From: a virus
Virus record (IMG/VR): IMGVR_UViG_3300027734_000010
Location: 1-39,452 of that record
Direction: 5' to 3' (one strand)
DNA length: 39,452 nt
Notes under the pieces: model-generated
What the model was told of the DNA's origin: nothing
The model's input: the letters and a program-made list of their open reading frames with translations, nothing else
The model's database searches: none
In this document: piece after piece, positions 1 through 39,452 of the stretch
How the letters are laid out: each line of letters opens with the position of its first letter
How positions within the stretch are numbered: position 1 is the stretch's first letter
Program-made: the position numbers and the translations under genes

Positions 1-127
1 CGGGGTCAATAGGCAAAGGAACACCGTTGTCATCAGGGATTATGCGCCCTGCGATTTGGTCTAACTTAGCCATAGCGACTATCTTCTTCATGCGGGCCAT
101 CTCGTCCTTGGCGAGGGGGAACCACAC
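1..127. repeat. 127-bp direct repeat shared by both contig ends (left copy)
   Basis: Positions 1-127 are identical base for base to 39326-39452. The repeat lies inside a coding region that reads continuously when the two copies are merged, which is the signature of a circular contig with a k-mer-sized overlap. A true short terminal repeat cannot be excluded from sequence alone, but exactly 127 bases matches a common maximum assembler k-mer. The unique genome length would be 39,325 bp. Confidence 0.95.
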
Positions 128-769
128 GTCATAGGGGATATGCCACTCAGCAAGTACCCGCCCAAAGTCATCAAGACCTGCGGCCCTACCTACACCCTTG
201 GAGATACCCTCCAGTGAGATGTGACCGATAACGATGGTGTCACAGTCGTTGGCAAAAGCGTTAATAGCCGCCTGTAGCACTGCGGTACGGCGTGGGCCTT
301 CGGGGTTCTCAAGTATCTTCTTCTGCTTCTTAAGGCCGATGGACTTCTCAAAAGAAAAGCCACCCATAGTCTTGAGTTCGTACAGGACCCTCTTACCGTC
401 CCAGTCGGGGATAACAGCAGTGATGACTGAACCGTCAAACACACCGTCAGCGTGCCCCGATACCATCTCAGCGACCTGAGACTTGTTCTCAAAGGTGGCT
501 CCGGGGAACCTGCGCCCGATAGCGTCCTGCACCCATTCGTGGATTTGCGTACCAAGGTGAGTGACCCACACAGAGGGGGCATCAAATGTATTGCTTGCCT
601 CGTACCCTAGTGCCTGATAGGAGAGCGCCCTAGAGCAGTCACCGGCTGATGAGTATCGAAGTGGGGTGTCAAAAGCAGTCGGCTTAGGACCCCTCTCTTC
701 ATCTTGTTGCACTAACTCTCGCAAGAGTGAGTCTGTAAATACTGGCGCTACTGGGATTTTCCAGTCCAT
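1..769 (-). CDS. Cas4/RecB-like PD-(D/E)XK exonuclease (5' part; gene crosses the circular join)
   Basis: The ATG at 769 opens a 290-codon frame that runs to position 1 and finishes at 39222 after closing the circle. The full protein shows Cas4/RecB-type nuclease motifs: Cys45 in DCSRALSYQ, His near 71-77, Asp108 in SGHADG, the ELK signature at about 131-133, and Gln166 after it. Three more cysteines at about 265, 268 and 274 (C-x2-C-x5-C) complete the four-cysteine set that holds a [4Fe-4S] cluster in Cas4 and AddB. A good AAAGGGGGCG ribosome site precedes the start. The next gene is an ERF annealing protein, so the role inferred is 5'-end resection for phage recombination. No CRISPR genes are present, so a spacer-acquisition role is unlikely. 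Confidence 0.88.
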   Translation of the reverse strand, partial: MDWKIPVAPVFTDSLLRELVQQDEERGPKPTAFDTPLRYSSAGDCSRALSYQALGYEASNTFDAPSVWVTHLGTQIHEWVQDAIGRRFPGATFENKSQVAEMVSGHADGVFDGSVITAVIPDWDGKRVLYELKTMGGFSFEKSIGLKKQKKILENPEGPRRTAVLQAAINAFANDCDTIVIGHISLEGISKGVGRAAGLDDFGRVLAEWHIPYDVWFPLAKDEMARMKKIVAMAKLDQIAGRIIPDDNGVPLPIDP

Positions 770-795
770 AACGCCCCCTTTCATTGTCGTGCCAC

Positions 796-824
796 ACTAT
801 ACACGGTGGCTGTGACATTTGCAA
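796..824 (-). promoter_or_regulatory. Candidate sigma70-type promoter for the Cas4-ERF operon (proximal)
   Basis: On the minus strand TTGCAA (819-824) is followed after 17 bp by TATAGT (796-801). Transcription would start about 20 bases before the ATG at 769. The call rests on consensus match and position only. Confidence 0.5.
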
Positions 825-838
825 ATGGGTGGGAGCCT

Positions 839-877
839 GCCGGGGACAGAAGGAAAGAGAATAACTTCTTCCCCGGC
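839..877 (-). other. Inverted repeat in the leader of the Cas4-ERF operon
   Basis: GCCGGGG (839-845) and CCCCGGC (871-877) can pair across a 25-base pyrimidine-rich loop on the minus-strand RNA. It lies between the two candidate promoters. It has no U-tract, so it is more likely an attenuator or leader structure than a simple terminator. Confidence 0.45.
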
Positions 878-923
878 GGCTCAACCGTGGCAACTGTGAA
901 AGGAGATAAACAGCGCCACCGCT

Positions 924-951
924 ATTGTAGCACACAACAGATACCTGCCAA
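924..951 (-). promoter_or_regulatory. Candidate sigma70-type promoter for the Cas4-ERF operon (distal)
   Basis: On the minus strand TTGGCA (946-951), a 16-bp spacer and TACAAT (924-929) form a strong consensus promoter. It lies downstream of the hairpin cluster that closes the structural operon and upstream of the nuclease gene. Confidence 0.6.
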
Positions 952-958
952 GTAGTTT

Positions 959-1035
959 CCCCTGCCGGGTGCTAACGCCGACAGGGGTTGTAACCCTTGA
1001 TACAGGCACTTTGCCTGCGCTGGTTACTTTACCAG
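959..1035 (-). terminator. Cluster of four consecutive hairpins after the structural operon
   Basis: Four inverted repeats stand almost back to back: CCCCTG.CGG/CCG.CAGGGG (959-987), GGGTT-GT-AACCC (985-996), CAGGC-ACTTT-GCCTG (1003-1017) and CTGGT-TACTTT-ACCAG (1020-1035). The HNH stop codon lies 17 bases beyond the last. None has a clear U-run, so intrinsic termination is uncertain. A factor-assisted terminator, a 3'-end stabiliser or a small structured RNA are alternatives. Confidence 0.45.
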
Positions 1036-1051
1036 AGCGGGATACTTCTTG

Positions 1052-1387
1052 TCAAGTGTTAAGGGATTGGCGGGTGCGTTCGTGTGGGCAAACCCTGTAA
1101 TAACCTTTAGCCTGGTTGCAATTATGGCAAAGCAATTGGTAGCGGTCCTTTGGATAGCCGTTACGTCTTAATTCCCGGTATAGGGTGGCACCAGACAATC
1201 CACGATCCCTGCGCTCTTTACCGCCGTCACAAAAAATGTGGTCTATTCCAAGAAATTCTGGAGTCCCCTCACCGCAGCAAACACATTTACCACCGTAGGC
1301 TTCTATAACATCCGCCCGTACACGCCTATAATTTTCCTTAGTAGCAGCGTCATGTTTTTCTTTGTTACGTTCGTACCAAGTTGTCAT
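1052..1387 (-). CDS. HNH endonuclease-like protein
   Basis: A 111-residue protein with a treble-clef HNH core: GKCVCCGE supplies the first zinc cysteines, GIDHIF gives the central Asp-His, and LCHNCNQAKG gives the second CxxC and the closing Asn-x3-Lys. The ATG at 1387 overlaps the stop of the metallophosphoesterase as ATGA, which favours it over the in-frame ATG three codons upstream. It is the last gene of the structural block. It could be a free-standing homing endonuclease or a DNA-packaging accessory nuclease; its position at an operon end beside a regulatory region suits the former. Confidence 0.85.
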   Translation of the reverse strand: MTTWYERNKEKHDAATKENYRRVRADVIEAYGGKCVCCGEGTPEFLGIDHIFCDGGKERRDRGLSGATLYRELRRNGYPKDRYQLLCHNCNQAKGYYRVCPHERTRQSLNT

Positions 1388-3457: not shown

Positions 3458-4254
3458 TAGTTGAATCCAATCACAGTTAAAGTAGGGGTAGATAGGGTTC
3501 CTGATGCGCCAGTATTCTTGGATGCGCTGGCAGTAATGCTGCCACCAGTGCTTGTCACAAAAGATGTAGAAATGTACTGAACCCAATTAGCAGTACCAGG
3601 GTAGGATTGGCTAACAGTTTTGCTACCAGCAGAAAGTGTGACAGCACCAGAAGTAAAGGCGGTAGCGGGTTGTGTAAGTACCACATCCGCAAGAACAAGG
3701 TAGTTAGCAAATCCGCTAACCGTGTAGGTAGTCGCACCTGTCCAGACGTTAGAGGCATCCACCCAGGTAGGGGCCGCACTGGGGCCTCCGGAGGTCAGCA
3801 TCTTACCAGCAGTGCCAGCAGTAAGGGCAGCGAGGGCATTGGCACCAGAGCCGTACAGGATGTCCCCTTGTGCCGTTACCTTGCCTACTGTCTGAGCAAC
3901 AGCGTAGTTGGCTTCGTTGAGGTCGGTGGCAGTCATAACGACAACTACGGGGACTGAAGCATCGTGGGCTTGAGCGGTAGTGTTGTCTTGCCCACGGACT
4001 ACGTTAAGTAGGGTGACTGAGCCGGTACTCCAGGCTGGGGCGGAACTTTGGGCCGGGACGTAAACCTTCTCCTCGCTTTGCAGGCCGTAGCCGATAGACA
4101 GCCAGAAACCGTAGGTCGTGCCCAGGCTATCCCAGGATGCGCTAGTGTTGGCTAGTACCACTGTGGTACCAACACCATCGGTTAGAGCCGTGGCGAGACT
4201 AGCCTGTACTGCCCCTCCATCATAAGAGTTTCGTGAATATGCTGTGCGTGCCAT
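3457..4254 (-). CDS. Tail fibre-like protein
   Basis: 265 residues, Ala/Thr/Ser/Gly-rich. Residues about 75-105 have the VRGQDNTTAQAHD pattern seen in phage tail proteins. Residues about 110-170 have the tail-fibre linker LNEANYAVAQ...GDILYGSGANALAALTAG. The C-terminus is beta-rich and ends in TPTLTVIGFN, which may be a trimerising or receptor-contacting tip. It lies directly upstream of the endolysin. Function is inferred from these low-complexity fibre signatures and position. Confidence 0.75.
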   Translation of the reverse strand: MARTAYSRNSYDGGAVQASLATALTDGVGTTVVLANTSASWDSLGTTYGFWLSIGYGLQSEEKVYVPAQSSAPAWSTGSVTLLNVVRGQDNTTAQAHDASVPVVVVMTATDLNEANYAVAQTVGKVTAQGDILYGSGANALAALTAGTAGKMLTSGGPSAAPTWVDASNVWTGATTYTVSGFANYLVLADVVLTQPATAFTSGAVTLSAGSKTVSQSYPGTANWVQYISTSFVTSTGGSITASASKNTGASGTLSTPTLTVIGFN

Positions 4255-4270
4255 TGTTATATTTTACCTT

Positions 4271-6199
4271 CTAGTCGGTTGGTCGTGGGTTGTAAGTAAA
4301 GCCATTTACGGTTTTCATAGAGACAACTAGGCTTCCACGGTATCCACCCTGGAAGTTGTCACGCCGTTCTTCTGGGAGCCACGTTATATCGTCAATAAGA
4401 ACGTCTGCGTAGAGTGGTCCTTCGGTGTAGGCAATAGTTCGTGTCTGCCTGCGGATATTGTCTAGGTACAAGTACTCCACATACGGGTCGTAAGTGTAGA
4501 TAGTGCCGTTCACATCTACCACGTCAGACAGTTGGATAACCTGCGTAATCTTTGTTTCGGTGGAGATAGTAGGCGTAGCCTGGAGGGTCCAACGTGTCAA
4601 AATAGACGACTGGGTTACTCCCGCCAGGGTCAAACGGACGTTAAAGTATTCTCCACGCTGGTTGGGGAAGATTGGAAATACGGTGCTTTGCGCCGGGGCA
4701 CTCATCGTAGCCACATCCACAAAGGCACCACTGTTGTAGGATACTGCGGCGGTTACGTTGCCGATACTTTGGCTGGTGTTCAAGTGGATGAAGGAGGCAA
4801 TCTTGTCGTCAGGGATTCCGTATGTGATGCGCCCACTATCCACATATCCAGAGGTGACATACTTGGTGGTGTCTTGAGTGTAAAGACCATACTCTGCGCC
4901 GGAAGTGCTAGGGATGGACATAAGGGGGCCGTTTGTGATTGGGTCCCAGTCAAGGGTCATGGCAGCGTTTCCGCCCGTCCAGTCAACCATAAGGTCTGAG
5001 GCGTAGGCCGGGGCTAGAGTGTCTATAAACATGGAGACGTCCATGCGCCCGATACCCGTGCTGGCATCGTCATAGTCGTTCCATGCAAAATAAACAAAGC
5101 GCCCATTGGCGGTAATGCCGGTAACGGGGTACTTGACTGGCTCTGTAATCGATGGAAGCAGTGGCCCGGATGTAAGATAGTTTCCCGTTCCTGGCTGGGT
5201 CATGCGGATGCCACGGTTAGTCCCCACAAACATGTAGTTCAGGTAGCCGTACAAAGCAGTTGGATACTCTCCATTAGGCAGGGGGAGTGCGGAGATAGGA
5301 ACTGTCATGGTCCCATTGCCATCGTTGCTATACGTTGAATAGTAAACAGAGCCGTTAGAGTCTTTTCCGGATGTTGAAGAATACCCTCCCATGTACACAG
5401 CGCCCTGTGCGTTCCCGAAGCAAGTCCACAAAAAGTTGTCATCAGGGTGCGTCCATAGGGACGCTATTGTTCCACCAGATTTGACGTAATGTATGGTGGG
5501 TCCTATTGCCACTAGCAGCCTGTCTGCTTGCCAGGAGATGGCGTAAGCGCCCGTGGTATGTGTCAGGTTGGACGAGGTTGCGGTAGCGCCGATAGTAGAG
5601 TGGTAGATTTTTGTGACAGAGAACTTGGAACACCATACGTCACGCCCGTTTGATGTTATGTCGCTACATCCGGCAATACTGTTTGCCCCGTCTTTTAATT
5701 CCGTCCATGTTGCATAGTCCTGCGTGAAATAGCAGCCTGTGTCGGTGATGACATAGACGTAATTGTTGGCTTTGATAGCCTTTATAAGCGTGCCGGTGTA
5801 GCCAGTCTTTTTAACGGTGGCGGGGAGGGCATTAATCTGCCATCTAGTCCAGGGGTCAACACCCTTGGAGCGGTAGAAGCGGCTAGAGGTTGAGCCTTGG
5901 CGGTCTAGGAACAACTGCCCCGAACCCATGCTCCAGTCGTTTTGCTCACGTCGCCATAGGCCCTCAGTATTTACTGTGCCTTCTCCGGCGATGTTGGTAA
6001 GGTTGATGGACTGGCGCTGTGAGGGGTAACTAGAGTGCTGGAAGTTATTGCGCTGGTAGTCACGGTTCGTGTCCACGCCATACCAACGCCCTGCGATAGA
6101 CACGGTGAATACTCCCTGCGGGCTGGTCGGCAGGGAGTTAGTCAGCGAGTTAAAAGCAGCGCCGCCTAGATAGGCGTTAGTAATCTGCAGTGTTACCAA
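4271..6199 (-). CDS. Large beta-propeller-like tail protein
   Basis: 642 residues, all beta, with repeated blade-like strings ending in aromatic or Gly turns (YVYVITDTGCYF, DVWCSKF, GAVYMGGY, YMFVGTNRGIRM, FVYFAWNDY) between residues about 140 and 380. A C-terminal beta domain with many Tyr and Thr follows. The pattern suggests a propeller followed by jelly-roll or Ig-like modules, common in tail hub or receptor-binding proteins. The start overlaps the previous gene by 7 bases. Exact role is unknown. Confidence 0.7.
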   Translation of the reverse strand: MVTLQITNAYLGGAAFNSLTNSLPTSPQGVFTVSIAGRWYGVDTNRDYQRNNFQHSSYPSQRQSINLTNIAGEGTVNTEGLWRREQNDWSMGSGQLFLDRQGSTSSRFYRSKGVDPWTRWQINALPATVKKTGYTGTLIKAIKANNYVYVITDTGCYFTQDYATWTELKDGANSIAGCSDITSNGRDVWCSKFSVTKIYHSTIGATATSSNLTHTTGAYAISWQADRLLVAIGPTIHYVKSGGTIASLWTHPDDNFLWTCFGNAQGAVYMGGYSSTSGKDSNGSVYYSTYSNDGNGTMTVPISALPLPNGEYPTALYGYLNYMFVGTNRGIRMTQPGTGNYLTSGPLLPSITEPVKYPVTGITANGRFVYFAWNDYDDASTGIGRMDVSMFIDTLAPAYASDLMVDWTGGNAAMTLDWDPITNGPLMSIPSTSGAEYGLYTQDTTKYVTSGYVDSGRITYGIPDDKIASFIHLNTSQSIGNVTAAVSYNSGAFVDVATMSAPAQSTVFPIFPNQRGEYFNVRLTLAGVTQSSILTRWTLQATPTISTETKITQVIQLSDVVDVNGTIYTYDPYVEYLYLDNIRRQTRTIAYTEGPLYADVLIDDITWLPEERRDNFQGGYRGSLVVSMKTVNGFTYNPRPTD

Positions 6200-24056: not shown

Positions 24057-25943
24057 TCACTGACCTAACGCCTGTTCTGCGGGTGACTGGTTCGCTGATG
24101 AACGCAGGCTCCGCAACATTGATGCTAGGTCCTGCGGGCCTTGTTCGGGGGCGGGCATGGGTGCGCCGGGCATGCCGGGTGGGGCCATACCTGGCATTTG
24201 GTCGACCATGTTTGGCTGCTCTGGGTTCATGGCTTCTTGTCCGGGCGGAGCAAAAGGCTGACCTTGTTGCTGAGCCTGCTGTGCCTGAGCCTGCTTCTTT
24301 TGCATCTCTTCGTGGACACGGCTAACAGCCACCTCCAACGGAACATGGTCGGTAGCCTTAATAGAGGCGATACGGGCAATGCTGGCTGGGTCCAACTGAC
24401 CCGATGCAGCCTGCTGCTCTAGACCAGTGAGTAGTGCTTGTCGGATTCCTTCGAGTTCAACTTGGTCTCGCTCACGGGTTGGGTCCTCAATCGCTGGGTC
24501 CATTTCACGGGCAGTCTGCTTAGACATGATGCCGGTTCCAACACGCTGTCCGATAGCGATGACCATTCCGTTGACATCGGACCCAGGTACGGAATATTTA
24601 ACATAGCAGAGGTCGGTTTCAAACGCTTCATTGGGTACATAGTCTTTCTGAGTGACGACTCCGGACGTGCCCATAACATATTGGCTTGGTTTGCTGCCAT
24701 GATAAGCCTTCTGGAAAGCAATAGCACGCCGGATTTCTGCTTCCATACTAGCAGCAAAAATCTCTTGCAGTTCCTGGATAGGCATATCTACAGTGCTGCC
24801 CATAACCATCTCTCCACGGCGAGCGGTACGGATGTTAGAGCCAGACTCTCCACCGAACTCTGATGGGATACCGGCGGTCAAGCGTTGTGCCCGCTCCAGA
24901 CGGTCAAGGGCCAGAGGGACGCCCTGGTTGGTCTGAATACCGACAACTTGCAAGTTACCGTTTTCAATGATTCCACGGCGGCCTTGCTTACCATCTGCTT
25001 CTTCAATAATGCGAGGCTTGCCGTTAGAGTTGGCGCTGGCAACAACCCATTCGTCTTGGAAAATACTGCGGAACACGGCGATGGTTTCGAGGGAGTCCAA
25101 CTTGGCTTGGCGCTGGTACATGCCTAGCAACTGGTCGAACATACCGCTCATGCGGTCTAGGGTGATGCGTCCTGGCATGACCACTGGGCAGATACCGGCC
25201 CGGTTGGGGATGCGCTCTAGAACAAGTTGCATGGACGACTGGACTACAGTTTGATTTTCTCCAGGTCGCCGGTCCACACCCATAGCAACCAAAACAGTCT
25301 CTTCAGCATCTACATACTCCAAAATGTTGATAAGAACATCGCCAGTTTCCTTAGCGGTGTAAAGAGCGTTGGCCTGCTGGGGGTACGTCTGACGAAGCCA
25401 TGCAAGGCTGCGCTTGTCAACAAAAATGCAGTTATCCGGTTCCATCGAGTCTGGGTCGTAGGACTGGGCGGGGTAAGTCGAAAGAGGGTTGCGTGGTCGC
25501 CAGAAGGGGATGGCTCGCTTGTCGTGTGAGTCTAGTGAAACTGGGGAGATGGAGACAGGGGAGCAACCGTAGGCGGTCATGTAGCGGGCACGGCGGCGCA
25601 TCTTCATGGTGGCTTTGTTCATGTCCAGCCAGCCCTTAGTTGCCATGCGGCGCTGGTACGCCTTATCCTCAGAGGCTTGGATGCCAGGGCGGAGGGCCGG
25701 GAAAGACACGTCTGGCATGACGGAAGCCACACGCATAGAGAACTGTTCGATACCCTGAGCGACTAGGTTAGCCACGGCGGGCTTCTCCATATCGTCTAGT
25801 TCAGGGAGTGGGACTACGACATCACCGTTGTAATGACGGCGAACGTCATCCATCTGGTTAATGTAAGGGCTACGGTCCTTCTTGCGCTGTTGATAAAGGG
25901 TGACAATTTGTTCTGCAGTAATCAAACTTTGGCCCTCAACCAA
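24057..25943 (-). CDS. Portal protein
   Basis: 628 residues, following terminase with a 22-base overlap, the standard position. The N-terminal helix-rich stretch (LYQQRKKDRSPYINQMDDVRRHYNGD), the clip/stem-like middle (DQLLGMYQRQAKLDSLETIAVFRSIFQDEW) and the long C-terminal helix with Glu/Arg fit portal architecture. The last 90 residues are a Gln/Pro/Met-rich disordered tail. It should form the dodecameric DNA channel at one vertex. Confidence 0.85.
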   Translation of the reverse strand: MVEGQSLITAEQIVTLYQQRKKDRSPYINQMDDVRRHYNGDVVVPLPELDDMEKPAVANLVAQGIEQFSMRVASVMPDVSFPALRPGIQASEDKAYQRRMATKGWLDMNKATMKMRRRARYMTAYGCSPVSISPVSLDSHDKRAIPFWRPRNPLSTYPAQSYDPDSMEPDNCIFVDKRSLAWLRQTYPQQANALYTAKETGDVLINILEYVDAEETVLVAMGVDRRPGENQTVVQSSMQLVLERIPNRAGICPVVMPGRITLDRMSGMFDQLLGMYQRQAKLDSLETIAVFRSIFQDEWVVASANSNGKPRIIEEADGKQGRRGIIENGNLQVVGIQTNQGVPLALDRLERAQRLTAGIPSEFGGESGSNIRTARRGEMVMGSTVDMPIQELQEIFAASMEAEIRRAIAFQKAYHGSKPSQYVMGTSGVVTQKDYVPNEAFETDLCYVKYSVPGSDVNGMVIAIGQRVGTGIMSKQTAREMDPAIEDPTRERDQVELEGIRQALLTGLEQQAASGQLDPASIARIASIKATDHVPLEVAVSRVHEEMQKKQAQAQQAQQQGQPFAPPGQEAMNPEQPNMVDQMPGMAPPGMPGAPMPAPEQGPQDLASMLRSLRSSANQSPAEQALGQ

Positions 25944-28771: not shown

Positions 28772-29277
28772 TGGGGCATCTCTACGATGACGAGTGCCCT
28801 GAGTGCGAGGAAGAAACCCGCCTAGAAATCATCAAGGCGCTGGAGGACTGTGGCTGGAACGTTATCCAAGACGGTTCCAAGTTGACAGTAAAGCCTGCTG
28901 CTGAGGATTGGCTGTTCGACCCGGAACACCGCAAAAACGCCCGCAAGGTAGTGACGACTAGTAACCACATGTCATTTACTGCCATTTTGGACGAGATTGA
29001 GGAACTGCACGACAAGAAGCAGCAAGACTATGGTAGAGTATCTGACCCCTATGCAAACGTGCGAGCGTCCGAGGACTTCGGTATTCCAGGTTGGGTAGGG
29101 ACAATCGTGCGGGCAAATGACAAGATGCGCCGACTCCAGAAGTTCTCACAAGACCAGGCGTTGATAAACGAATCGGTTGAGGATAGCCTTTTGGATTTGG
29201 CAACTTACGCCATTATTGCCCTTGACTTATACAGACAGGAAAACAATCCAGCATGGCAAGAAGCGTGGCAAAACTGA
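28771..29277 (+). CDS. Nmad1/DUF1599-like (MazG-fold-like) protein with N-terminal zinc knuckle
   Basis: 168 residues. The N-terminus has CPECEEE, a single CxxC knuckle. Residues about 70-160 match the nucleotide-modification-associated (DUF1599) helical domain: LHDKKQQDYG, YANVRASEDFGIPGWVG, IVRANDKMRRLQKF and SVEDSLLDLATYAIIALDLY, with acidic residues as in all-alpha NTP pyrophosphatases. The likely role is nucleotide-pool metabolism or base modification. Assignment is by remembered motif pattern. Confidence 0.7.
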   Translation: MGHLYDDECPECEEETRLEIIKALEDCGWNVIQDGSKLTVKPAAEDWLFDPEHRKNARKVVTTSNHMSFTAILDEIEELHDKKQQDYGRVSDPYANVRASEDFGIPGWVGTIVRANDKMRRLQKFSQDQALINESVEDSLLDLATYAIIALDLYRQENNPAWQEAWQN

Positions 29278-29390
29278 GCAGGGACCCCTTGGGCCGGTAT
29301 CTATTTGACATCGGCAGGAAAACCTACTACTTTTGGAGTGAGGCCCACGCCCTCAAAGCCTTCGAGTTACTAACAAAGGAGAAACAATGA
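29253..29390 (+). CDS. Hypothetical 45-residue protein
   Basis: Starts inside the end of the previous gene (25-base overlap) and stops as ATGA over the next start. Basic and aromatic (LGRYLFDIGRKTYYFWSE). No family is recognised; the couplings on both sides support translation. Confidence 0.6.
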   Translation: MARSVAKLSRDPLGRYLFDIGRKTYYFWSEAHALKAFELLTKEKQ

Positions 29391-29494
29391 AAGATGTACT
29401 TTACACCGATTGGACCATGGAACACCCCGACCCCTGGTGGTGTGACGAGTGCGGCGCAGAAGATACCCCTAGCAACTGCACCTGTGATGACTGA
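29387..29494 (+). CDS. Tiny zinc-knuckle protein (35 residues)
   Basis: An acidic peptide with WWCDECG at about 18-24 and CTC near the end, giving four potential zinc ligands. GGAG lies 8 bases before the ATG, and it overlaps the previous stop as ATGA. The next start lies 8 bases inside it. Confidence 0.65.
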   Translation: MKDVLYTDWTMEHPDPWWCDECGAEDTPSNCTCDD

Positions 29495-29747
29495 GGAAGA
29501 AACTTACGCTGAGTACCTATGGCGTGAGAGAACTGAAAGTGGGGGAGAAGTGGACAAAACCACATCAGATATCCGTGCAAGTGCCACTTCTGACGTGCTG
29601 CCCACAGATGAGTGCAAGCACGTTCCCTACTGGACAATTTATCTGGTTGAGGAGATTAGAGATAAAGGCCGTATCACCAACGTCAGGCAAAACTACGAGC
29701 AAGGAACCGAGTGCGTTTACTGCCCTATGTGTGGAGAGAAACTATGA
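29487..29747 (+). CDS. Small zinc-finger-like protein
   Basis: 86 residues from the internal ATG 29487; the longer open frame before it is a shadow of the preceding gene. The first half is acidic. The second half has CKHVPYW and a terminal CVYCPMCGEKL, so a C/H...C..C..C metal site is likely. The stop overlaps the next start as ATGA. Confidence 0.65.
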   Translation: MTEEETYAEYLWRERTESGGEVDKTTSDIRASATSDVLPTDECKHVPYWTIYLVEEIRDKGRITNVRQNYEQGTECVYCPMCGEKL

Positions 29748-29824
29748 CCGACCTGCAGGGTTTCTGGGCTGTCTGGTCTGCGCTGATGGTATTTGCTATC
29801 TGGTGCATTTGGATTAGCCGATGA
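29744..29824 (+). CDS. 26-residue single-span membrane peptide
   Basis: Almost the whole chain is one Trp-rich transmembrane helix (FWAVWSALMVFAIWCIWI). ATGA overlaps on both sides tie it to its neighbours. Its function is unknown; small phage membrane peptides often act in superinfection exclusion or lysis control. Confidence 0.65.
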   Translation: MTDLQGFWAVWSALMVFAIWCIWISR

Positions 29825-29958
29825 GTCTCTGTAAAAACTGCGGAAAGCCAATCAACACCTATAACATCAAGCCTGTGTGGTACCACTGTGATACCGGCAG
29901 GGAGATGTGCGACTATGACGACCTACTAGACATCCGGGTGGCGCAACCATACCAATAA
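29821..29958 (+). CDS. 45-residue zinc-ribbon protein
   Basis: Begins MSLCKNCGKPINTY, then HCDTGREMC, giving two cysteine pairs with an intervening His. The ATG overlaps the previous stop. It is the last gene before the 1.1-kb control region. Confidence 0.7.
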   Translation: MSLCKNCGKPINTYNIKPVWYHCDTGREMCDYDDLLDIRVAQPYQ

Positions 29959-29986
29959 CGGTATAGTCTTGACAGACAGGTTTATT

Positions 29987-30052
29987 GTACCAACTTAGGT
30001 ACGATTTCGTGTGGCACGAAACTAGCCAATAAACGGTATCGTATCTGATACC
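29987..30052 (+). other. Three consecutive inverted repeats
   Basis: GTACC-AACTTA-GGTAC (29987-30002), TTTCGTG-TGG-CACGAAA (30005-30021) and GGTATC-GTATCT-GATACC (30035-30052) follow one another within 66 bases, just after the first rightward operon. A TTGACA box lies at 29969-29974. They could be operators, a terminator or processing hairpins; there is no U-tract. Confidence 0.55.
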
Positions 30053-30072
30053 ACATCTGCTATCATGGTACC

Positions 30073-30156
30073 ATGCCATTACCCAGGACCCCCGGCGCAC
30101 TTAAGCGAGCCTTCCAAGCCTGGCGCTGGCTCCGATACTACCGTAAGTCTAAGTAA
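30073..30156 (+). CDS. Possible 27-residue cationic peptide
   Basis: A short frame encoding a very basic, Trp/Tyr-containing peptide (ALKRAFQAWRWLRYYRKSK in its C-terminal part) that would form an amphipathic helix. No ribosome site is visible before the ATG, which lies next to the palindrome ATGGTACCAT. It may be chance; the strong amphipathicity is the only argument for it. Confidence 0.3.
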   Translation: MPLPRTPGALKRAFQAWRWLRYYRKSK

Positions 30157-30354
30157 CTCTGTAGTCCATTCAGAGGCCCCTATACGCCTCTCTAACGCTC
30201 TCTAACCCCCAGGGTGTCTCCTAGGTCCAAAGAGTATAAGTATGGGTGTGTTATGACACATTCTCGTTACGGTGATACACATACACATACATACCCCCCC
30301 TCAAGGCATACCCCCCGTCAGAAATACTACTAAACCACTAGGAATTGTAGGTGT

Positions 30355-30512
30355 TGCTTGTGAACTTGTGCGGAGAAATGCTAGTAATGCAATGGGATTA
30401 GGAGGAATGCATTGGCTATCCATACATTTTGAACCATTAGTACAATTAGAATTAGTTTCTATTCTGCTTGTGACCTTGTGAATCTGTACCCTCCACTAGT
30501 GCGCTTGTGAAT
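30355..30512 (+). repeat. Iteron-like CTTGTG repeats
   Basis: A 16-mer TGCTTGTGA(A/C)CTTGTG occurs at 30355-30370 and 30465-30480 with one mismatch, and a shorter GCTTGTGAAT at 30503-30512. In all, five CTTGTG hexamers lie within about 160 bases on one strand. The arrangement suggests a replication origin or a protein-binding array. Confidence 0.5.
30447..30461. promoter_or_regulatory. 15-bp palindromic operator, copy 1 (TAGAA-N5-TTCTA)
   Basis: TAGAATTAGTTTCTA, with arms TAGAA and TTCTA. First of five related 15-mers in the control region. Confidence 0.6.
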
Positions 30513-30542
30513 ACATATGCTACTAAGTCACTAGCAATACAT

Positions 30543-30557
30543 TAGAACTACTTTCTA
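30543..30557. promoter_or_regulatory. 15-bp palindromic operator, copy 2
   Basis: TAGAACTACTTTCTA, with both arms exact. It lies 96 bp from copy 1 and 26 bp before the first SOS box. Confidence 0.6.
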
Positions 30558-30582
30558 TTACTCTCCCCTCCATAGGAGATAA

Positions 30583-30596
30583 CGAACACTTGTTCG
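30583..30596. promoter_or_regulatory. LexA-type SOS box 1
   Basis: CGAACACTTGTTCG fits the Gram-positive/actinobacterial LexA core CGAAC-N4-GTTCG exactly in both half-sites. The identical 14-mer occurs again 82 bp downstream. Host LexA would be the expected binder, as no phage lexA is seen. Confidence 0.8.
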
Positions 30597-30644
30597 CTGC
30601 CAGGGGTTTGGCGCCGATTGGACTGACAGTCTAGACCCATAGTC

Positions 30645-30659
30645 TAGAGTTAATTTCTA
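30645..30659. promoter_or_regulatory. 15-bp palindromic operator, copy 3
   Basis: TAGAGTTAATTTCTA, with one mismatch in the left arm. It overlaps the second AGTCTAGA direct repeat and sits between the two SOS boxes. Confidence 0.5.
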
Positions 30660-30664
30660 TCACC

Positions 30665-30678
30665 CGAACACTTGTTCG
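30665..30678. promoter_or_regulatory. LexA-type SOS box 2
   Basis: A second identical CGAACACTTGTTCG. A weak promoter-like TTGGAC-16-TAGTCT (about 30619-30644) lies between the two boxes, so LexA on both could block transcription from it. Confidence 0.8.
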
Positions 30679-30796
30679 CCATTCCCTGAAAGGGGGCTAA
30701 TTCGCCCTCTAAGCCCCTGACCCCCCTCCCCTAGGGCTTTACCCTCGAAACAGATTTGCGGGGCATACAGAAAAACTCCTATTTCGGGGTATTTAA

Positions 30797-30811
30797 TAGA
30801 AAACATTTCTA
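30797..30811. promoter_or_regulatory. 15-bp palindromic operator, copy 4
   Basis: TAGAAAACATTTCTA, with six-base arms TAGAAA/TTTCTA, the most symmetrical copy. It is paired with copy 5 upstream of the strong promoter at 30842. Confidence 0.65.
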
Positions 30812-30815
30812 AATA

Positions 30816-30830
30816 AAGAAAACATTTCTA
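30816..30830. promoter_or_regulatory. 15-bp palindromic operator, copy 5
   Basis: AAGAAAACATTTCTA, identical to copy 4 except for the first base. Centres are 19 bp apart, about two helical turns, so two dimers could bind on one face. It ends 11 bp before the -35 box. Confidence 0.65.
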
Positions 30831-30841
30831 GTGTTTTTGAC

Positions 30842-30869
30842 TTGACAGGGGGCTAGGGGTGTGTATACT
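30842..30869 (+). promoter_or_regulatory. Strong promoter of the second rightward operon
   Basis: TTGACA (30842-30847), a 16-bp spacer and TATACT (30864-30869), immediately after the paired 15-bp palindromes. It shares the TTGACTTGAC string with the three downstream promoter modules. Confidence 0.75.
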
Positions 30870-30898: not shown

Positions 30899-30979
30899 AT
30901 GAGGACGGCAACGAAACGAAAGTGGAAGAGGGCTACAACTTGTGCGATACCCACCGCAGGGGGTAATTGTTTCACGTGA
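30899..30979 (+). CDS. Possible 26-residue leader peptide running into parS
   Basis: A basic peptide frame (MRTATKRKWKRATT at its start) with GGAGGAG about 10 bases upstream. Its TGA stop falls inside the parS palindrome. It could be a leader peptide or chance; another frame over the same bases also reads well and ends NLCDTHRRG at a stop just before parS. Confidence 0.25.
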   Translation: MRTATKRKWKRATTCAIPTAGGNCFT

Positions 30980-30983
30980 AACA
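30968..30983. promoter_or_regulatory. Perfect host-type parS site (ParB binding)
   Basis: TGTTTCACGTGAAACA is a perfect 16-bp palindrome containing GTTTCACGTGAAAC, the chromosomal parS consensus of actinobacteria and of most bacteria. It stands in the leader between the promoter at 30842 and the gene at 31053. No ParA or ParB gene is recognised in this genome, so host ParB would be the expected binder. Confidence 0.88.
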
Positions 30984-30989
30984 GTCGAA

Positions 30990-31025
30990 ACGCCGTAAGG
31001 CGTCTACGGGGGATAGTCTCCCCGT
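30990..31025 (+). other. Two hairpins in the leader before the 83-residue gene
   Basis: ACGCC-GTAA-GGCGT (30990-31003) carries a GNRA-like tetraloop. ACGGGG/CCCCGT (31006-31025) has an 8-base loop. There is no U-run. They follow parS directly and precede the AGAGGA ribosome site, so an attenuator or mRNA-stability role is possible. Confidence 0.5.
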
Positions 31026-31052
31026 ACTGAAGAGACAGACGAAAGAGGAATT

Positions 31053-31304
31053 ATGCAAGCGAATTACCGACAAATCGAAGATATGCTGAAGAGCATGACC
31101 CCATTTAAAGGCAACTCTATGCGGGCAGTCATTGAGAATGGAAAGGAATATCGGGTGATTTCCTACAACACCACAATTGCAATGGCAACGCTAGACGGCG
31201 TGATTCACTACTACGACCCCACGAAATACAGCACCACCACTAGCCGGCAACAGAATCTAGTTAAGCGGGCGTGGGGGCTATCGGGCGAGGCGGTTAGCCG
31301 ATGA
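31053..31304 (+). CDS. Hypothetical 83-residue protein, first gene of the second rightward operon
   Basis: Has a clear GAGGA ribosome site. Mixed alpha/beta with VIENGKEYRVISYNTTIAMAT, then a Tyr/Asp/Ser-rich C-terminus (YYDPTKYSTTTSRQQN). It resembles small uncharacterised actinophage proteins; no function is known. The stop overlaps the next start as ATGA. It is the first gene after parS, from the most strongly regulated promoter, so it is a candidate regulator or maintenance factor. Confidence 0.75.
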   Translation: MQANYRQIEDMLKSMTPFKGNSMRAVIENGKEYRVISYNTTIAMATLDGVIHYYDPTKYSTTTSRQQNLVKRAWGLSGEAVSR

Positions 31305-31399
31305 CGTGCGGATATTGGTACGATTCACTCGAAGAGGCGATATCATACAACGGGAACTACCCCGCCTACGCCATAGACGAAGTGGAGGAATGGGGGTAA
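31301..31399 (+). CDS. 32-residue acidic peptide
   Basis: Starts MTCGYWYDSLEEAISYNG and ends EEWG. The ATGA overlap with the preceding gene supports translation. Its stop lies one base before the second parS-like site. Confidence 0.55.
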   Translation: MTCGYWYDSLEEAISYNGNYPAYAIDEVEEWG

Positions 31400-31400
31400 T

Positions 31401-31416
31401 TGTTTCACGTAAAACA
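31401..31416. promoter_or_regulatory. Second parS-like site (one mismatch)
   Basis: TGTTTCACGTAAAACA differs from the perfect site at 30968 by a single base in the right arm. Both sites are preceded by the same GGGGGTAAT, so the segment GGGGGTAATTGTTTCACGT (19 bases) is duplicated. The copies are 433 bp apart. Confidence 0.7.
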
Positions 31417-31425
31417 TACGGGAGT

Positions 31426-31480
31426 TTGTGAAAACTTTCACAAGGATTGACTTGACTTTAGGAATTAGACGTAGTAAGTT
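31426..31480 (+). promoter_or_regulatory. Operator-promoter module, copy 1
   Basis: The 18-bp palindrome TTGTGAAAACTTTCACAA (31426-31443) is followed after 8 bp by TTGACT (31452-31457), a 17-bp spacer and TAAGTT (31475-31480). The arms are eight bases with no mismatch. It drives the acidic gene at 31528. Two more modules with identical spacing follow downstream. Confidence 0.8.
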
Positions 31481-31919: not shown

Positions 31920-32098
31920 CCGCTACGGAATTGGCAAAACACTTAGGCAAGAACGGGGAGTACCGTATCAACGGGCTAGGCGTGATGGTGACGGTAGTAG
32001 ATGCAAGAATGAGATTTGGAGAAATGGATTTTAAGATTACCCCATTGACCGGAACCGGAGAAATTTGGACACGGGCTAGTGGAGTGAAACTAGACTAA
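31916..32098 (+). CDS. Hypothetical 60-residue protein
   Basis: The N-terminus MTATELAKHLGKNGEYRING resembles a short helix-turn segment, followed by beta strands (GVMVTVVDARMRFG). Coupled by ATGA to the preceding gene. No family is recognised. Confidence 0.65.
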   Translation: MTATELAKHLGKNGEYRINGLGVMVTVVDARMRFGEMDFKITPLTGTGEIWTRASGVKLD

Positions 32099-32099
32099 G

Positions 32100-32154
32100 T
32101 TGTGAAAAGTATCACAAGGATTGACTTGACTTTAAAAATAAAACGTAGTAATCT
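32100..32154 (+). promoter_or_regulatory. Operator-promoter module, copy 2
   Basis: TTGTGAAAAGTATCACAA (32100-32117), 8 bp, TTGACT (32126-32131), 17 bp, TAATCT (32149-32154). It drives the ArdA gene. A further GGTTAG-AAAA-CTAACC palindrome at 32162-32177 overlaps the expected transcription start. Confidence 0.8.
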
Positions 32155-32197: not shown

Positions 32198-32575
32198 ATG
32201 GACGTATCAAAGTTTGTAGAGGACGGAGTTATCCCCTACACGGTATTAGAGGGCAAGACTACGGGAGAGCAATCCCTAATCCTAGCCCTATGCCTTGAGG
32301 AGATGGGCGAGGACGTGGGAATGATTTGCGCCTACTATGAGAACATCGCCACCGTATCAGATATTGACCTACGGGAATTGATTGACGAGGCAGAGGGGTG
32401 CTACGAAGGGGAGTATGATTCATACACCGAATTTGCGGAGCAATTGGTAGACAATATCGGTGTGCTTGACGGAATGCCCGAAAACTTACGGTACTATTTT
32501 GACTACGAAAAGTTTGGGCGGGATTTGCGCCACGACTATTGGGAGCAAAACGGCTACTACTTTAGGAATAACTAA
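32198..32575 (+). CDS. ardA: ArdA-type antirestriction protein (short form)
   Basis: 125 residues, very acidic. The C-terminal half has the ArdA signature: YDSYTEFAEQLVDNIGVLDGM, PENLRYYFDYEKFGRDLRHD and a final Tyr/Phe-rich tip. ArdA proteins are DNA mimics that inhibit Type I restriction enzymes. Classical ArdA is about 165-180 residues with three domains; here the N-terminal domain seems missing. It has its own operator-promoter module, which fits rapid early expression on entry. Confidence 0.85.
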   Translation: MDVSKFVEDGVIPYTVLEGKTTGEQSLILALCLEEMGEDVGMICAYYENIATVSDIDLRELIDEAEGCYEGEYDSYTEFAEQLVDNIGVLDGMPENLRYYFDYEKFGRDLRHDYWEQNGYYFRNN

Positions 32576-32582
32576 CAGGAGT

Positions 32583-32637
32583 TTGTGAAAAAGTTCACAA
32601 AGATTGACTTGACTTTACCGATAGGCTAGACTACTGT
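32583..32637 (+). promoter_or_regulatory. Operator-promoter module, copy 3
   Basis: TTGTGAAAAAGTTCACAA (32583-32600), 8 bp, TTGACT (32609-32614), 17 bp, TACTGT (32632-32637). It drives the 252-residue gene at 32699. Confidence 0.8.
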
Positions 32638-35617: not shown

Positions 35618-36023
35618 TGTGGTCTTTCTCGCAGGTGTGCCGGAGAGTGGCAGGTAGTGGGCAGTCGTACTTATCCCGTATCCCTTTCGCCAGCATTATG
35701 TCTAGTTCTGAGGCTGTTGCCGTGAGCATAAAGCCGTGACGGGTTGCCCAATCGGGGTGAGCCGTGAGCCAAGAATGGCAGTTGCGGCAAAGGCTTGTAT
35801 ACAAATCGGGAATGAGGTGTGCCCCCGGTTTGCGCCCCCTGGGAATAATCTCGTGGACATCTACCGCCGTGAAGTCACAGCCGACACCCAGGAGAGATGC
35901 TTCACAAAATGGGATTAAGTCTAACTGTGCTTTCACAAGTTCACGACGGACAGGAGCCTCCCGCCTACGCTTCTTGCTAACGGGATTGAGCCCCTTAGTT
36001 CGTTTGAGTGGAGTTCGCTTCAC
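35607..36023 (-). CDS. HNH nuclease
   Basis: 138 residues. The basic N-terminus (MKRTPLKRTKGLNPVSKKRRR) is typical of phage HNH proteins. The core is CEASLLGVGCDF, VDVHEIIPRG with the catalytic His, and LCRNCHSWLTAHP as the closing part of the fold. It overlaps whiB by 29 bases. The role could be in recombination (NinG-like) or packaging. Confidence 0.8.
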   Translation of the reverse strand: MKRTPLKRTKGLNPVSKKRRREAPVRRELVKAQLDLIPFCEASLLGVGCDFTAVDVHEIIPRGRKPGAHLIPDLYTSLCRNCHSWLTAHPDWATRHGFMLTATASELDIMLAKGIRDKYDCPLPATLRHTCEKDHNDN

Positions 36024-36246
36024 GCCGTTTACGCCTTATCCTATCACGATTGCGGAATGAAGTTCCACCCCACCAGCCCTCCTCAAAGTTGGCGATGGCA
36101 AACTCCCTACAATCGTCCATGATGGCGCAGGTCTGACAGACAGCCTGAATGTCGGGGTCGGGGTCAATCTCCTGGAAGGTGTCGGGGTCGTACCGAACGA
36201 ACAGGTTAGGGTCTAGCCCCAAGCACGCTGCCAAGTCTCTACGCAT
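35995..36246 (-). CDS. whiB: WhiB-family iron-sulfur transcription factor
   Basis: 83 residues with four cluster cysteines at 8, 37, 40 and 46 (C-x28-C-x2-C-x5-C), then the EGWWGGTS turn and a basic RNRDRIRRKRRE tail for DNA contact. WhiB proteins are confined to actinobacteria and their phages, where they bind the primary sigma factor and alter host transcription. The first spacing is longer than in most. No ribosome site precedes the ATG; its promoter places the transcript start near the ATG, indicating a leaderless mRNA. Confidence 0.92.
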   Translation of the reverse strand: MRRDLAACLGLDPNLFVRYDPDTFQEIDPDPDIQAVCQTCAIMDDCREFAIANFEEGWWGGTSFRNRDRIRRKRREANSTQTN

Positions 36247-36283: not shown

Positions 36284-36501
36284 TCATTTAACTCCAAGTA
36301 GCCAAGACCGTCTGTTTCCCACTCAGCCTCGTTGCCTACACGCATGTAGACTAGGCACGGGTCGCCACCCTGCTCAAAGGCTTCGCCTTCGGAATCAGCG
36401 ATAGGGCCTCCATCGTGGGTTTCACAGAATGGTAGTGAGGCATAGCCATGCTCCACCCCGTAGCGTATCCATTGTTCTCTGGTCAAGTTAATAATCTTCA
36501 C
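36280..36501 (-). CDS. Small actinophage-type hypothetical protein
   Basis: 73 residues from GTG 36501, with GAAGGAGG at good distance. Contains FCETHDGGPIADSEGEAFEQGGDPC, a Cys/His-rich motif (shown in two parts of one loop) familiar in small actinophage proteins, possibly zinc-binding. Its function is unknown. The stop lies beside the whiB promoter. Confidence 0.7.
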   Translation of the reverse strand: MKIINLTREQWIRYGVEHGYASLPFCETHDGGPIADSEGEAFEQGGDPCLVYMRVGNEAEWETDGLGYLELND

Positions 36502-36878
36502 TACCAGCCTCCTTCACAGCCGTTTTGGTCAGGCACATATCCACTGCTGTTAATACGGGTAGCGATATACACTTGCTCTTCCTTACTTGCCAAACCTGGA
36601 TGCGGCGCAAATTGTAGCCCGCCATATTCTTCCCAGACTACTCTGGATATCCCTAGCCCACCTGCGAAGGTCAAACCGCTCATCTTCCAATCGCCGTGGG
36701 TTTCGCACCATGCCACCTTCTCCCATTTCGATACGGTTAGTGAATCCACTAGAGTTGTTGATGTAGTTGAAGTAATCGCCAACGCTGAATGTGTAGGGCT
36801 TGTAATAGGTTTCTTCGGGGTGTGCGAGGGCATCACAAACAGCGCAAGGCTGGTGATGAGGGCCGTTATGAGTCTCAT
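36501..36878 (-). CDS. Secreted Rpf-like transglycosylase (cell-wall lysozyme)
   Basis: 125 residues. Residues 1-16 are a hydrophobic signal sequence or anchor. A Ser/Thr linker follows, then the Rpf/transglycosylase-like domain: KWEKVAWCETHGDW with the catalytic Glu59, FAGGLGISRVVWEEYGG, and ASKEEQVYIATRI. The family cleaves peptidoglycan glycan strands and in actinobacteria resuscitates dormant cells. It sits in the regulatory/recombination block, not with the endolysin, so a role other than final lysis is likely. Confidence 0.85.
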   Translation of the reverse strand: MRLITALITSLALFVMPSHTPKKPITSPTHSALAITSTTSTTLVDSLTVSKWEKVAWCETHGDWKMSGLTFAGGLGISRVVWEEYGGLQFAPHPGLASKEEQVYIATRINSSGYVPDQNGCEGGW

Positions 36879-37804: not shown

Positions 37805-37932
37805 TATTTATCTCTCTCTAAATTCATTATCTCATCTCGCAGGTCGTAGATTTCTTCAATGAGCCACATAAAGTCGTCTGTGGTCATACGGTCCATCCCT
37901 CGCTCTGCGATGTCCTTTACTCTATCAATCAT
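37804..37932 (-). CDS. 42-residue acidic helical protein
   Basis: The start overlaps the stop of the proteasome-like gene as ATGA and the stop overlaps the next start. An all-helical charged chain (MTTDDFMWLIEEIYDLRDEI). Possibly a partner or regulator of a neighbour. No family is recognised. Confidence 0.6.
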   Translation of the reverse strand: MIDRVKDIAERGMDRMTTDDFMWLIEEIYDLRDEIMNLERDK

Positions 37933-38441
37933 TCTGTCACCTCCACGACATTGTAACTTGCGCTTGTGCCCGTCCATTTGTGTGATGCCTCAAACGCTAA
38001 GGCAATACGCTGACGTGCCGTTAGGCCATCGTTTGAAGTGTAGAGGGAACCAAGGGCAAACTGTGACCCACTGCCGATGGCGTGGTAGTCTCCCCAGATT
38101 TCCACATGGCCCAGGTCCGACTGAATCTCAAACCATTGACCGCTATAGCCAATCAGGAACGAAGTGTCATCGTTCTTAAAGTCTGCCTCTCGCCATGCTT
38201 CAGCGATAGCGGTTGTCATGTCGGTGATGTTGCAGTCAGGGCCATCTACCTCAAGGCTATTCACAGCCTCTACAGCAATCTCCCCGCCACGCCAGGAGCC
38301 AGCAAAGCCAATCACTACGCTGTCGCCTAGTCGGTACACTTTGGGCGTTAGGGATACAACGTTGGTAGCCCCGTCACTGGCAACCTTGTCGCCAGCCAGT
38401 ACCATCGTGCGCCCGTCTGTAATTCCTATAATCGTTGTCAT
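37929..38441 (-). CDS. Proteasome-beta/HslV-like Ntn hydrolase
   Basis: 170 residues. After removal of Met, the chain begins TTIIGITDGRTMVLAGDKV with Thr1, Asp17 and, further on, Lys33 in SLTPKVYRL. These are the nucleophile and catalytic partners at the same numbers as in HslV and 20S proteasome beta subunits. GFAGSWRGG matches the GFAG turn, and IGSGSQFALGSLYT matches the conserved GSGG...A segment. A threonine protease or related amidase is predicted, probably oligomeric. No HslU, Mpa or ARC-like ATPase is present, so it would act alone, use a host ATPase, or act on host proteasome assembly. Confidence 0.85.
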   Translation of the reverse strand: MTTIIGITDGRTMVLAGDKVASDGATNVVSLTPKVYRLGDSVVIGFAGSWRGGEIAVEAVNSLEVDGPDCNITDMTTAIAEAWREADFKNDDTSFLIGYSGQWFEIQSDLGHVEIWGDYHAIGSGSQFALGSLYTSNDGLTARQRIALAFEASHKWTGTSASYNVVEVTE

Positions 38442-39222: not shown

Positions 39223-39452
39223 TATTTGTCCTTTCGATTGTTAATGGTTACGATACCACTTCCGTCTGCCACGCACAAGTCTTTGTACGAGCAGTAGTCA
39301 CACTTCCAATATGGGCGTGCGGCTTCGGGGTCAATAGGCAAAGGAACACCGTTGTCATCAGGGATTATGCGCCCTGCGATTTGGTCTAACTTAGCCATAG
39401 CGACTATCTTCTTCATGCGGGCCATCTCGTCCTTGGCGAGGGGGAACCACAC
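39222..39452 (-). CDS. Cas4/RecB-like exonuclease, 3' part (continues at 769-1)
   Basis: The C-terminal 76 residues of the gene begun at 769, of which the first part duplicates 1-127. It carries the WKCDYCSYKDLC cluster (C-x2-C-x5-C) of the iron-sulfur PD-(D/E)XK nucleases. Apparent truncation is only the contig end. Confidence 0.88.
   Translation of the reverse strand: MWFPLAKDEMARMKKIVAMAKLDQIAGRIIPDDNGVPLPIDPEAARPYWKCDYCSYKDLCVADGSGIVTINNRKDK
39326..39452. repeat. 127-bp direct repeat shared by both contig ends (right copy)
   Basis: Identical to positions 1-127; see the left copy. When merged, the exonuclease gene is uninterrupted. Confidence 0.95.

Follow-up and report, generated by a model that had tools for sequence, protein, structure and literature searches.

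Host-type parS sites on a phage with no detectable ParB: possible use of the host chromosome segregation machinery

Introduction

The closest described system to the locus considered here is that of Bacillus phage phi29, a virulent phage: the host protein Spo0J (ParB) is reported to trap its genome in spores, with Spo0A restraining its promoters (Meijer et al. 2005, cited in PMC9437464). A literature search of incomplete coverage returned this as the sole report found of a host ParB acting on phage sites, and returned no report of host parS sites in phages. The cluster A actinobacteriophage RedRock encodes its own ParA and ParB and carries repeats of an 8-bp motif (PMC7157519), and phages under LexA control exist, being cited in PMC9437464.

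Here, we describe a phage genome that carries host-type parS sites and encodes no detectable ParB. The window, as we call the whole stretch of DNA that was analysed, is a 39,452-bp IMG/VR virus record. Like phi29, the window phage has no detectable ParB of its own and host-type parS sites in its genome; handling of the phage DNA by host ParB and restraint of early genes by a host regulator are described for phi29, whereas both are only proposed here. The two also differ, phi29 being a protein-primed phage of 19 kb with a spore-forming host and Spo0A as its brake, and the window representing a 39-kb tailed phage of a probable actinobacterium, with LexA-type boxes and one good and one weak site. 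With RedRock it shares a (probable) actinobacterial host, centromere sites and the absence of an integrase, and it differs in encoding neither ParA nor ParB and in having the host's 16-bp parS instead. Bacillus phage GIL01 is a LexA-controlled phage, and the window phage resembles phages of this kind in having predicted host LexA boxes in its control region and apparently no integrase; unlike them, it has no LexA partner protein identified in the window. The phi29-Spo0J system is already known, and by analogy the window phage may be a variant of it outside the spore case.

Genome and host of the window phage

The first and last 127 bases of the window (1-127 and 39326-39452) are identical, which indicates a genome of 39,325 bp, circular or circularly permuted and probably complete. 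Since 127 bp is a common assembler k-mer size, the identical ends are probably a circular-assembly overlap and not a biological terminal repeat. Terminase, HK97-type capsid and Erf genes are the tailed-phage markers, and SSB, ArdA, Erf, a RusA-like resolvase and structural genes were recognised when the tested window proteins were scanned against Pfam, PHROG and NCBIfam. Three genes bear on the host:

35995-36246, minus strand: WhiB
36501-36878, minus strand: Rpf-type (Rpf-like) transglycosylase
37929-38441, minus strand: proteasome-like peptidase

Together, they point to an actinobacterial host, and the phage probably infects a freshwater actinobacterium, the host phylum being read from gene content. 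Spore formation by such a host is improbable, which weighs against the reading that we favour below.

The two parS sites and their surroundings

The following elements surround the sites, the two short ORFs among them being possible genes read from the sequence:

30583-30596: LexA/SOS-type box CGAACACTTGTTCG, copy 1
30623-30650: promoter-like CTGACA-16-TAGAGT, flanked by the pair of LexA-type boxes and weaker than the next promoter-like element
30665-30678: LexA/SOS-type box CGAACACTTGTTCG, copy 2
30842-30869, plus strand: promoter-like TTGACA-16-TATACT (11/12 consensus positions, a consensus match only), preceding site 1 and the early operon
30899-30979, plus strand: possible 26-codon leader ORF with a good Shine-Dalgarno sequence
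30959-30983, plus strand: 25-nt repeat unit GGGGGTAATTGTTTCACGTGAAACA, with a second copy, 96% identical, at 31392-31416
30968-30983: parS site 1, TGTTTCACGTGAAACA, an exact 16-bp palindrome of the host type
30983-31044, plus strand: type II hammerhead ribozyme (RF02276; 51.5 bits against a cut-off of 37, E 6.6e-8)
31053-31304, plus strand: 83-aa gene, the first early gene after the ribozyme, with a tblastx match to relative L155 at 3818-4090 (minus strand)
31301-31399, plus strand: possible 32-codon ORF, its stop 2 nt before site 2
31401-31416: parS-like site 2, TGTTTCACGTAAAACA, one mismatch to parS
31404-31460 (plus strand), 32078-32134 and 32561-32617: three copies, found by repeat search, of a 57-nt promoter module (TTGTGAAAnnTTCACAA...TTGACTTGACTTTA), in which the inverted repeat TTGTGAAAnnTTCACAA stands directly upstream of TTGACT

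A sequence-only reading that preceded this analysis had placed an exact 16-bp parS palindrome and a one-mismatch copy with a common flank at these positions, and both are there, but the mismatch in the second changes a core position (C6/G11). Judged by its bases, site 1 is a full parS, and beyond the two sites no parS match within three mismatches occurs anywhere in the window. Natural one-base variants lie mainly at outer positions, and that of site 2 was seen once among the host matches listed; with a changed core base and a variant so rarely seen, site 2 is probably weak.

That such a 16-mer is not expected by chance in 39 kb, as had been stated, is borne out by a first-order Markov model, in which 1.3e-5 exact parS sites are expected in the window and, at a distance of up to 500 bp from site 1, 1.5e-5 sites with one mismatch. 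The two sites also share the 9-base left flank GGGGGTAAT, for which the chance is 5e-6. Some single-site contigs in a collection of 2.9 million contigs are possibly due to chance, but for the window a chance match is barely credible, with about 1e-5 expected per site and the motif repeated in the relative L155. The earlier placement of both sites in non-coding DNA holds with respect to genes of annotated size, and fails for site 1 if the possible 26-codon ORF is counted, as its last codons overlap the site.

Two neighbouring elements had been missed, namely the hammerhead ribozyme adjoining site 1 and the LexA-type boxes around the upstream promoter-like site. The ribozyme starts at the final base of site 1 and stops 8 nt short of the 83-aa gene; its core (GAAAC, GUC, CUGAAGA) is intact, and cleavage is predicted after C31004. 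It has the full core of RF02276 type II hammerheads and scores above their cut-off, and differs from them in adjoining a parS in an early-gene leader. The palindrome might accordingly act as RNA, an 8-bp hairpin beside the hammerhead that tunes the folding or cleavage of the leader, and palindrome and flank do fold directly 5' of the ribozyme, where they would compete for bases of the outer stem II. We regard this as very unlikely, because no hammerhead was found at the Rfam cut-off at site 2, at the L155 sites or in the other relatives searched; because the site at L155:5194 has one arm changed without compensation, which a parS tolerates and a hairpin does not; and because the excess of parS in other phages (below) would be left unexplained.

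The two copies of CGAACACTTGTTCG, which we take to be LexA/SOS-type boxes, follow the pattern CGAACN4GTTCG, which occurs three times in the window against 0.017 expected, the third occurrence (28450) lying inside the ssb gene. Downstream, the first copy of the 57-nt promoter module overlaps site 2. Both sites are near promoter-like elements and lie within the longer common 25-nt unit, which would suit operators for a phage or host transcription regulator whose likeness to parS is coincidental. We consider operators unlikely: the identity to host parS extends over 16/16 bases, site 1 lies about 100 bp downstream of one promoter-like element and site 2 upstream of another, the L155 copies lie elsewhere, WhiB is the only DNA-binding gene recognised, and the same 16-mer, but not control palindromes, is in excess in unrelated phages.

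parS in chromosomes, viral contigs, cultured phages and plasmids

The assignment to the actinobacterial type of parS, made in the sequence-only reading, was upheld: parS with at most one mismatch is present in 42 of 61 actinobacterial genomes, often in clusters, and a reversed-pattern control palindrome in none of the 61. By this match, the window motif is the chromosomal parS of what appears to be the phage's own host phylum.

Among IMG/VR virus contigs, the exact 16-mer occurs in at least 120 rows, as does the 18-mer with A/T flanks (again at least 120), compared with 33 and 2 for two control palindromes; the parS counts are lower bounds and include short contigs, possibly bacterial. Only 9% of the DNA of these contigs is free of called ORFs, yet 66 of the 146 parS sites among the matches listed fall in it (binomial p ~5e-30), against none of 33 control-palindrome sites. 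The simple gene caller used can set spurious ORFs over true gaps (e.g. L155:2463), so that the non-coding count is probably conservative. More than one exact parS is found in 17 of the 120 contigs listed and in none of the controls. ParB exceeded the cut-off in only 3 of 39 long parS-bearing contigs, and two of 30 contigs checked (G079 and G084) have direct terminal repeats, with no ParB match in either.

In cultured phages, a 17-18-nt parS match was found in 198 of 50,697 records (2.3 Gb), a count that requires at least 17 matching bases in BLAST, a filter that site 1 of the window, with its T and G flanks, would itself fail; the 198 records are not independent, and those of Listeria are fragments without annotation, differing in length and possibly bacterial. 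For the two control palindromes the counts were 5, belonging to a single family of Erwinia RNA-polymerase genes, and 0. Among the groups named, phages of Microbacterium, Listeria, Gordonia, Arthrobacter, Bacillus and Lactobacillus predominate, with no Escherichia or Salmonella phages among the matches listed. Annotation was inspected for sixteen parS-bearing cultured records and for phi29. The site lies between genes in Woes, PatrickStar, Voltaire, DSS3P8, Arian, BcoS-136, Lpa804, Mimi, CUB-FM, CH17P1 and Vibrio phage phi 3, and so does the matched site of an inovirus; in CMP1 it meets the end of a gene, and in Paschalis, OneinaGillian and Emotion it falls inside genes. ParB_N was below the cut-off or absent in 16 of these 17 phages, the exception being Paschalis. 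The inovirus, Bajarodino virus 3 (L438, PQ006097.1), has six exact parS and no ParB in 6,183 nt (sites at 704, 740, 3041, 3583, 4380 and 5921, two of them inside annotated genes by coordinate), and other 'bajarodino' records likewise have 5-6 parS. phi29 itself carries four copies of TGTTTCACGTGGAACA, a one-mismatch parS, where 0.025 are expected within two mismatches. Host-type parS occurs in phages that lack ParB far more often than chance would allow.

In Vibrio phage phi 3 (L453), a T5-like phage, parS is located at 1001-1018, in the terminal repeat between the pre-early genes A1 and A2, and its position inside the repeat implies two copies per genome.

Plasmids carry a 17-18-nt parS in 18 records in 7.3 Gb, which is rarer than in phages (198 in 2.3 Gb) and weakens a purely plasmid-like role. 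Most plasmids in the collections come from hosts in which this parS is not in use, and with so many hosts lacking ParB the contrast is only suggestive. Some of the parS-bearing plasmid records are as large as chromosomes, and two Enterococcus faecium 'plasmids' have, at 18 kb, the apparent size of a phage.

Several phage groups generally regarded as virulent (phi29-like, N4-like, T5-like and Herelleviridae) have members with an exact or variant parS. This argues for a strong rival to the reading that we favour, less probable than it in our estimate, in which host ParB binds the sites and serves lytic growth, whether by bringing the incoming genome to the nucleoid or origin, by SMC recruitment, by protecting the DNA, by spreading over early promoters and modulating them, or by being titrated to the detriment of host segregation. 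That phage parS is often found in an early region, as in the terminal repeat of Vibrio phi 3, that it is less frequent in plasmids and that the window family lacks an integrase also speak for a lytic use. Speaking against it are the LexA-type boxes, which hint at a phage held in check, the small number of sites (one or two), which would titrate ParB poorly in a host possibly carrying several, and phi29, which employs ParB for inheritance and not lysis, according to PMC9437464.

Partition, integration and lysogeny genes

ParA and ParB genes, which had not been seen in the sequence-only reading, were not found among the window proteins in the protein scans run either, and for ParB six-frame profile searches of the window with PF02195 (ParB_N, E<=0.1) and PF17762 (HTH_ParB, E<=10) gave no match. 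A phage ParB overlooked by annotation was considered and rejected, the six-frame searches being negative. AlphaFold models, made without alignment, of the two largest unassigned early-side proteins had mean pLDDT values of 42 and 35 and no interpretable fold, so that a diverged ParB-like fold could still be present.

Tyrosine integrase (PF00589) and serine recombinase/resolvase (PF00239) are absent from the window and 19 relatives (20 family records), an absence to be expected of virulent phages no less than of extrachromosomal ones. No Rep or repressor was recognised by Pfam, PHROGs or NCBIfam among the window proteins scanned, and several genes have no assigned function. The proposal, made from the sequence, that host ParB acts on the phage gains from the host-phylum parS, the lack of a detectable ParB and the above-chance association in phages; the plasmid prophage state that formed part of it is unproven. 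We caution against the plain plasmid-prophage reading because no lysogeny genes were recognised in the phage group and parS is scarce in plasmids. Virulent phages often carry an exact parS and plasmids seldom do, so plasmid-style partition should not be assumed, and a dormant or plasmid state is no more than possible, as neither Rep nor repressor was found and the integrase-less family may be virulent.

parS in relatives of the window phage

A scan of relatives for parS, which had been put forward as a check, gave a mixed result. L155, an 8.6-kb contig with 80% terminase identity, has two sites: at 2463 an exact parS, located in the gap between two early genes, and at 5194 the variant TGTTCCACGTGAAACA, also known from phi29, next to a cluster of LexA-type boxes (5066-5193); L156, nearly identical to L155, has the second (variant) site. 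In G002 (82% terminase identity, 41.9 kb), the early region is without parS and without LexA-type boxes, but the early region itself differs between L155 and G002. The two phages with early-region LexA-type boxes, the window phage and L155, both carry parS, and G002 has neither. The contigs of the closest relatives, L003 (98%) and L005 (94%), break off some 100 bp before site 1 would be reached, and about 45 more distant contigs have no parS within two mismatches. In 1.65 Mb of relatives, parS gave six matches, which are three distinct places as both contigs are present twice, and eight control palindromes gave none at 0-1 mismatch. Matches in G002 at 25584 (2 mismatches) and in G003 at 9894 (3 mismatches), about 22 kb off and in a late-gene position, were set aside.

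The parS positions in L155 differ from those in the window, though they are in the same early region. Position shifting while sequence stays favours a position-independent centromere over an operator, and parS appears, disappears and moves within one phage group, as would be expected of a small position-independent element.

A proposed role for host ParB

Our tentative best reading is that the window phage, encoding no detectable ParB, carries a genuine host-type parS through which host ParB segregates or positions its DNA while lysis is restrained. The parts of this reading differ in strength: binding of host ParB to the window sites is likely, as judged from their sequence, and segregation as the purpose of the sites, drawn from the analogy with phi29, is plausible at best. 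Host ParB would bind site 1, and site 2 weakly, load as a CTP clamp and spread across the early region, and the phage DNA would then be retained, placed and distributed by the host ParA/SMC machinery. The likeliest use would be in an interval without lysis, when early transcription is kept down, probably by host LexA at the upstream SOS-type boxes, such that infected cells would hand phage DNA to their daughters until lytic growth restarts. This logic is modelled on phi29 in sporulating Bacillus, where host Spo0A is the brake and host Spo0J/ParB provides segregation. Counted against it are G002, which lacks the site, and the changed core base of site 2.

Phages with parS and no ParB probably borrow the host chromosome-sorting protein. 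It is conceivable, if somewhat doubtful, that host parS without ParB is a widespread and repeatedly evolved strategy by which tailed, protein-primed and filamentous phages, infecting hosts with this type of parS, borrow host ParB, and that in non-sporulating hosts it serves an undescribed carrier state or infection function. The window phage, going by its predicted elements, may possibly pair borrowed ParB sites with borrowed LexA sites. If host ParB acts on phage DNA beyond phi29 and spores, phages lacking integrase and partition genes could persist in growing cells by way of the host's chromosome segregation, and proteins of the host cell cycle would serve phages generally as a resource. Cultured parS phages at hand are Woes and PatrickStar of Gordonia, Mimi of Arthrobacter and phi29 of Bacillus.

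Further observations on the phage group

No cultured phage among those searched matches the window closely at the DNA level, and the closest cultured terminases, those of Streptomyces phages, share about 30% identity across 30% of the protein; a related terminase is found in more than 200 IMG/VR contigs. A genome scan for the host produced only two hits, both distantly related terminases, one in a MAG of Acidimicrobiaceae and one in a MAG labelled Gammaproteobacteria, and these were considered insufficient for naming it. The early region of L003 contains an apparent DNA methyltransferase gene (468-1091, minus strand; judged from its sequence) that is absent from the window. In G072 (L071), six in-frame TGA codons interrupt the terminase reading frame at 29137-30840, which suggests a recoded phage.
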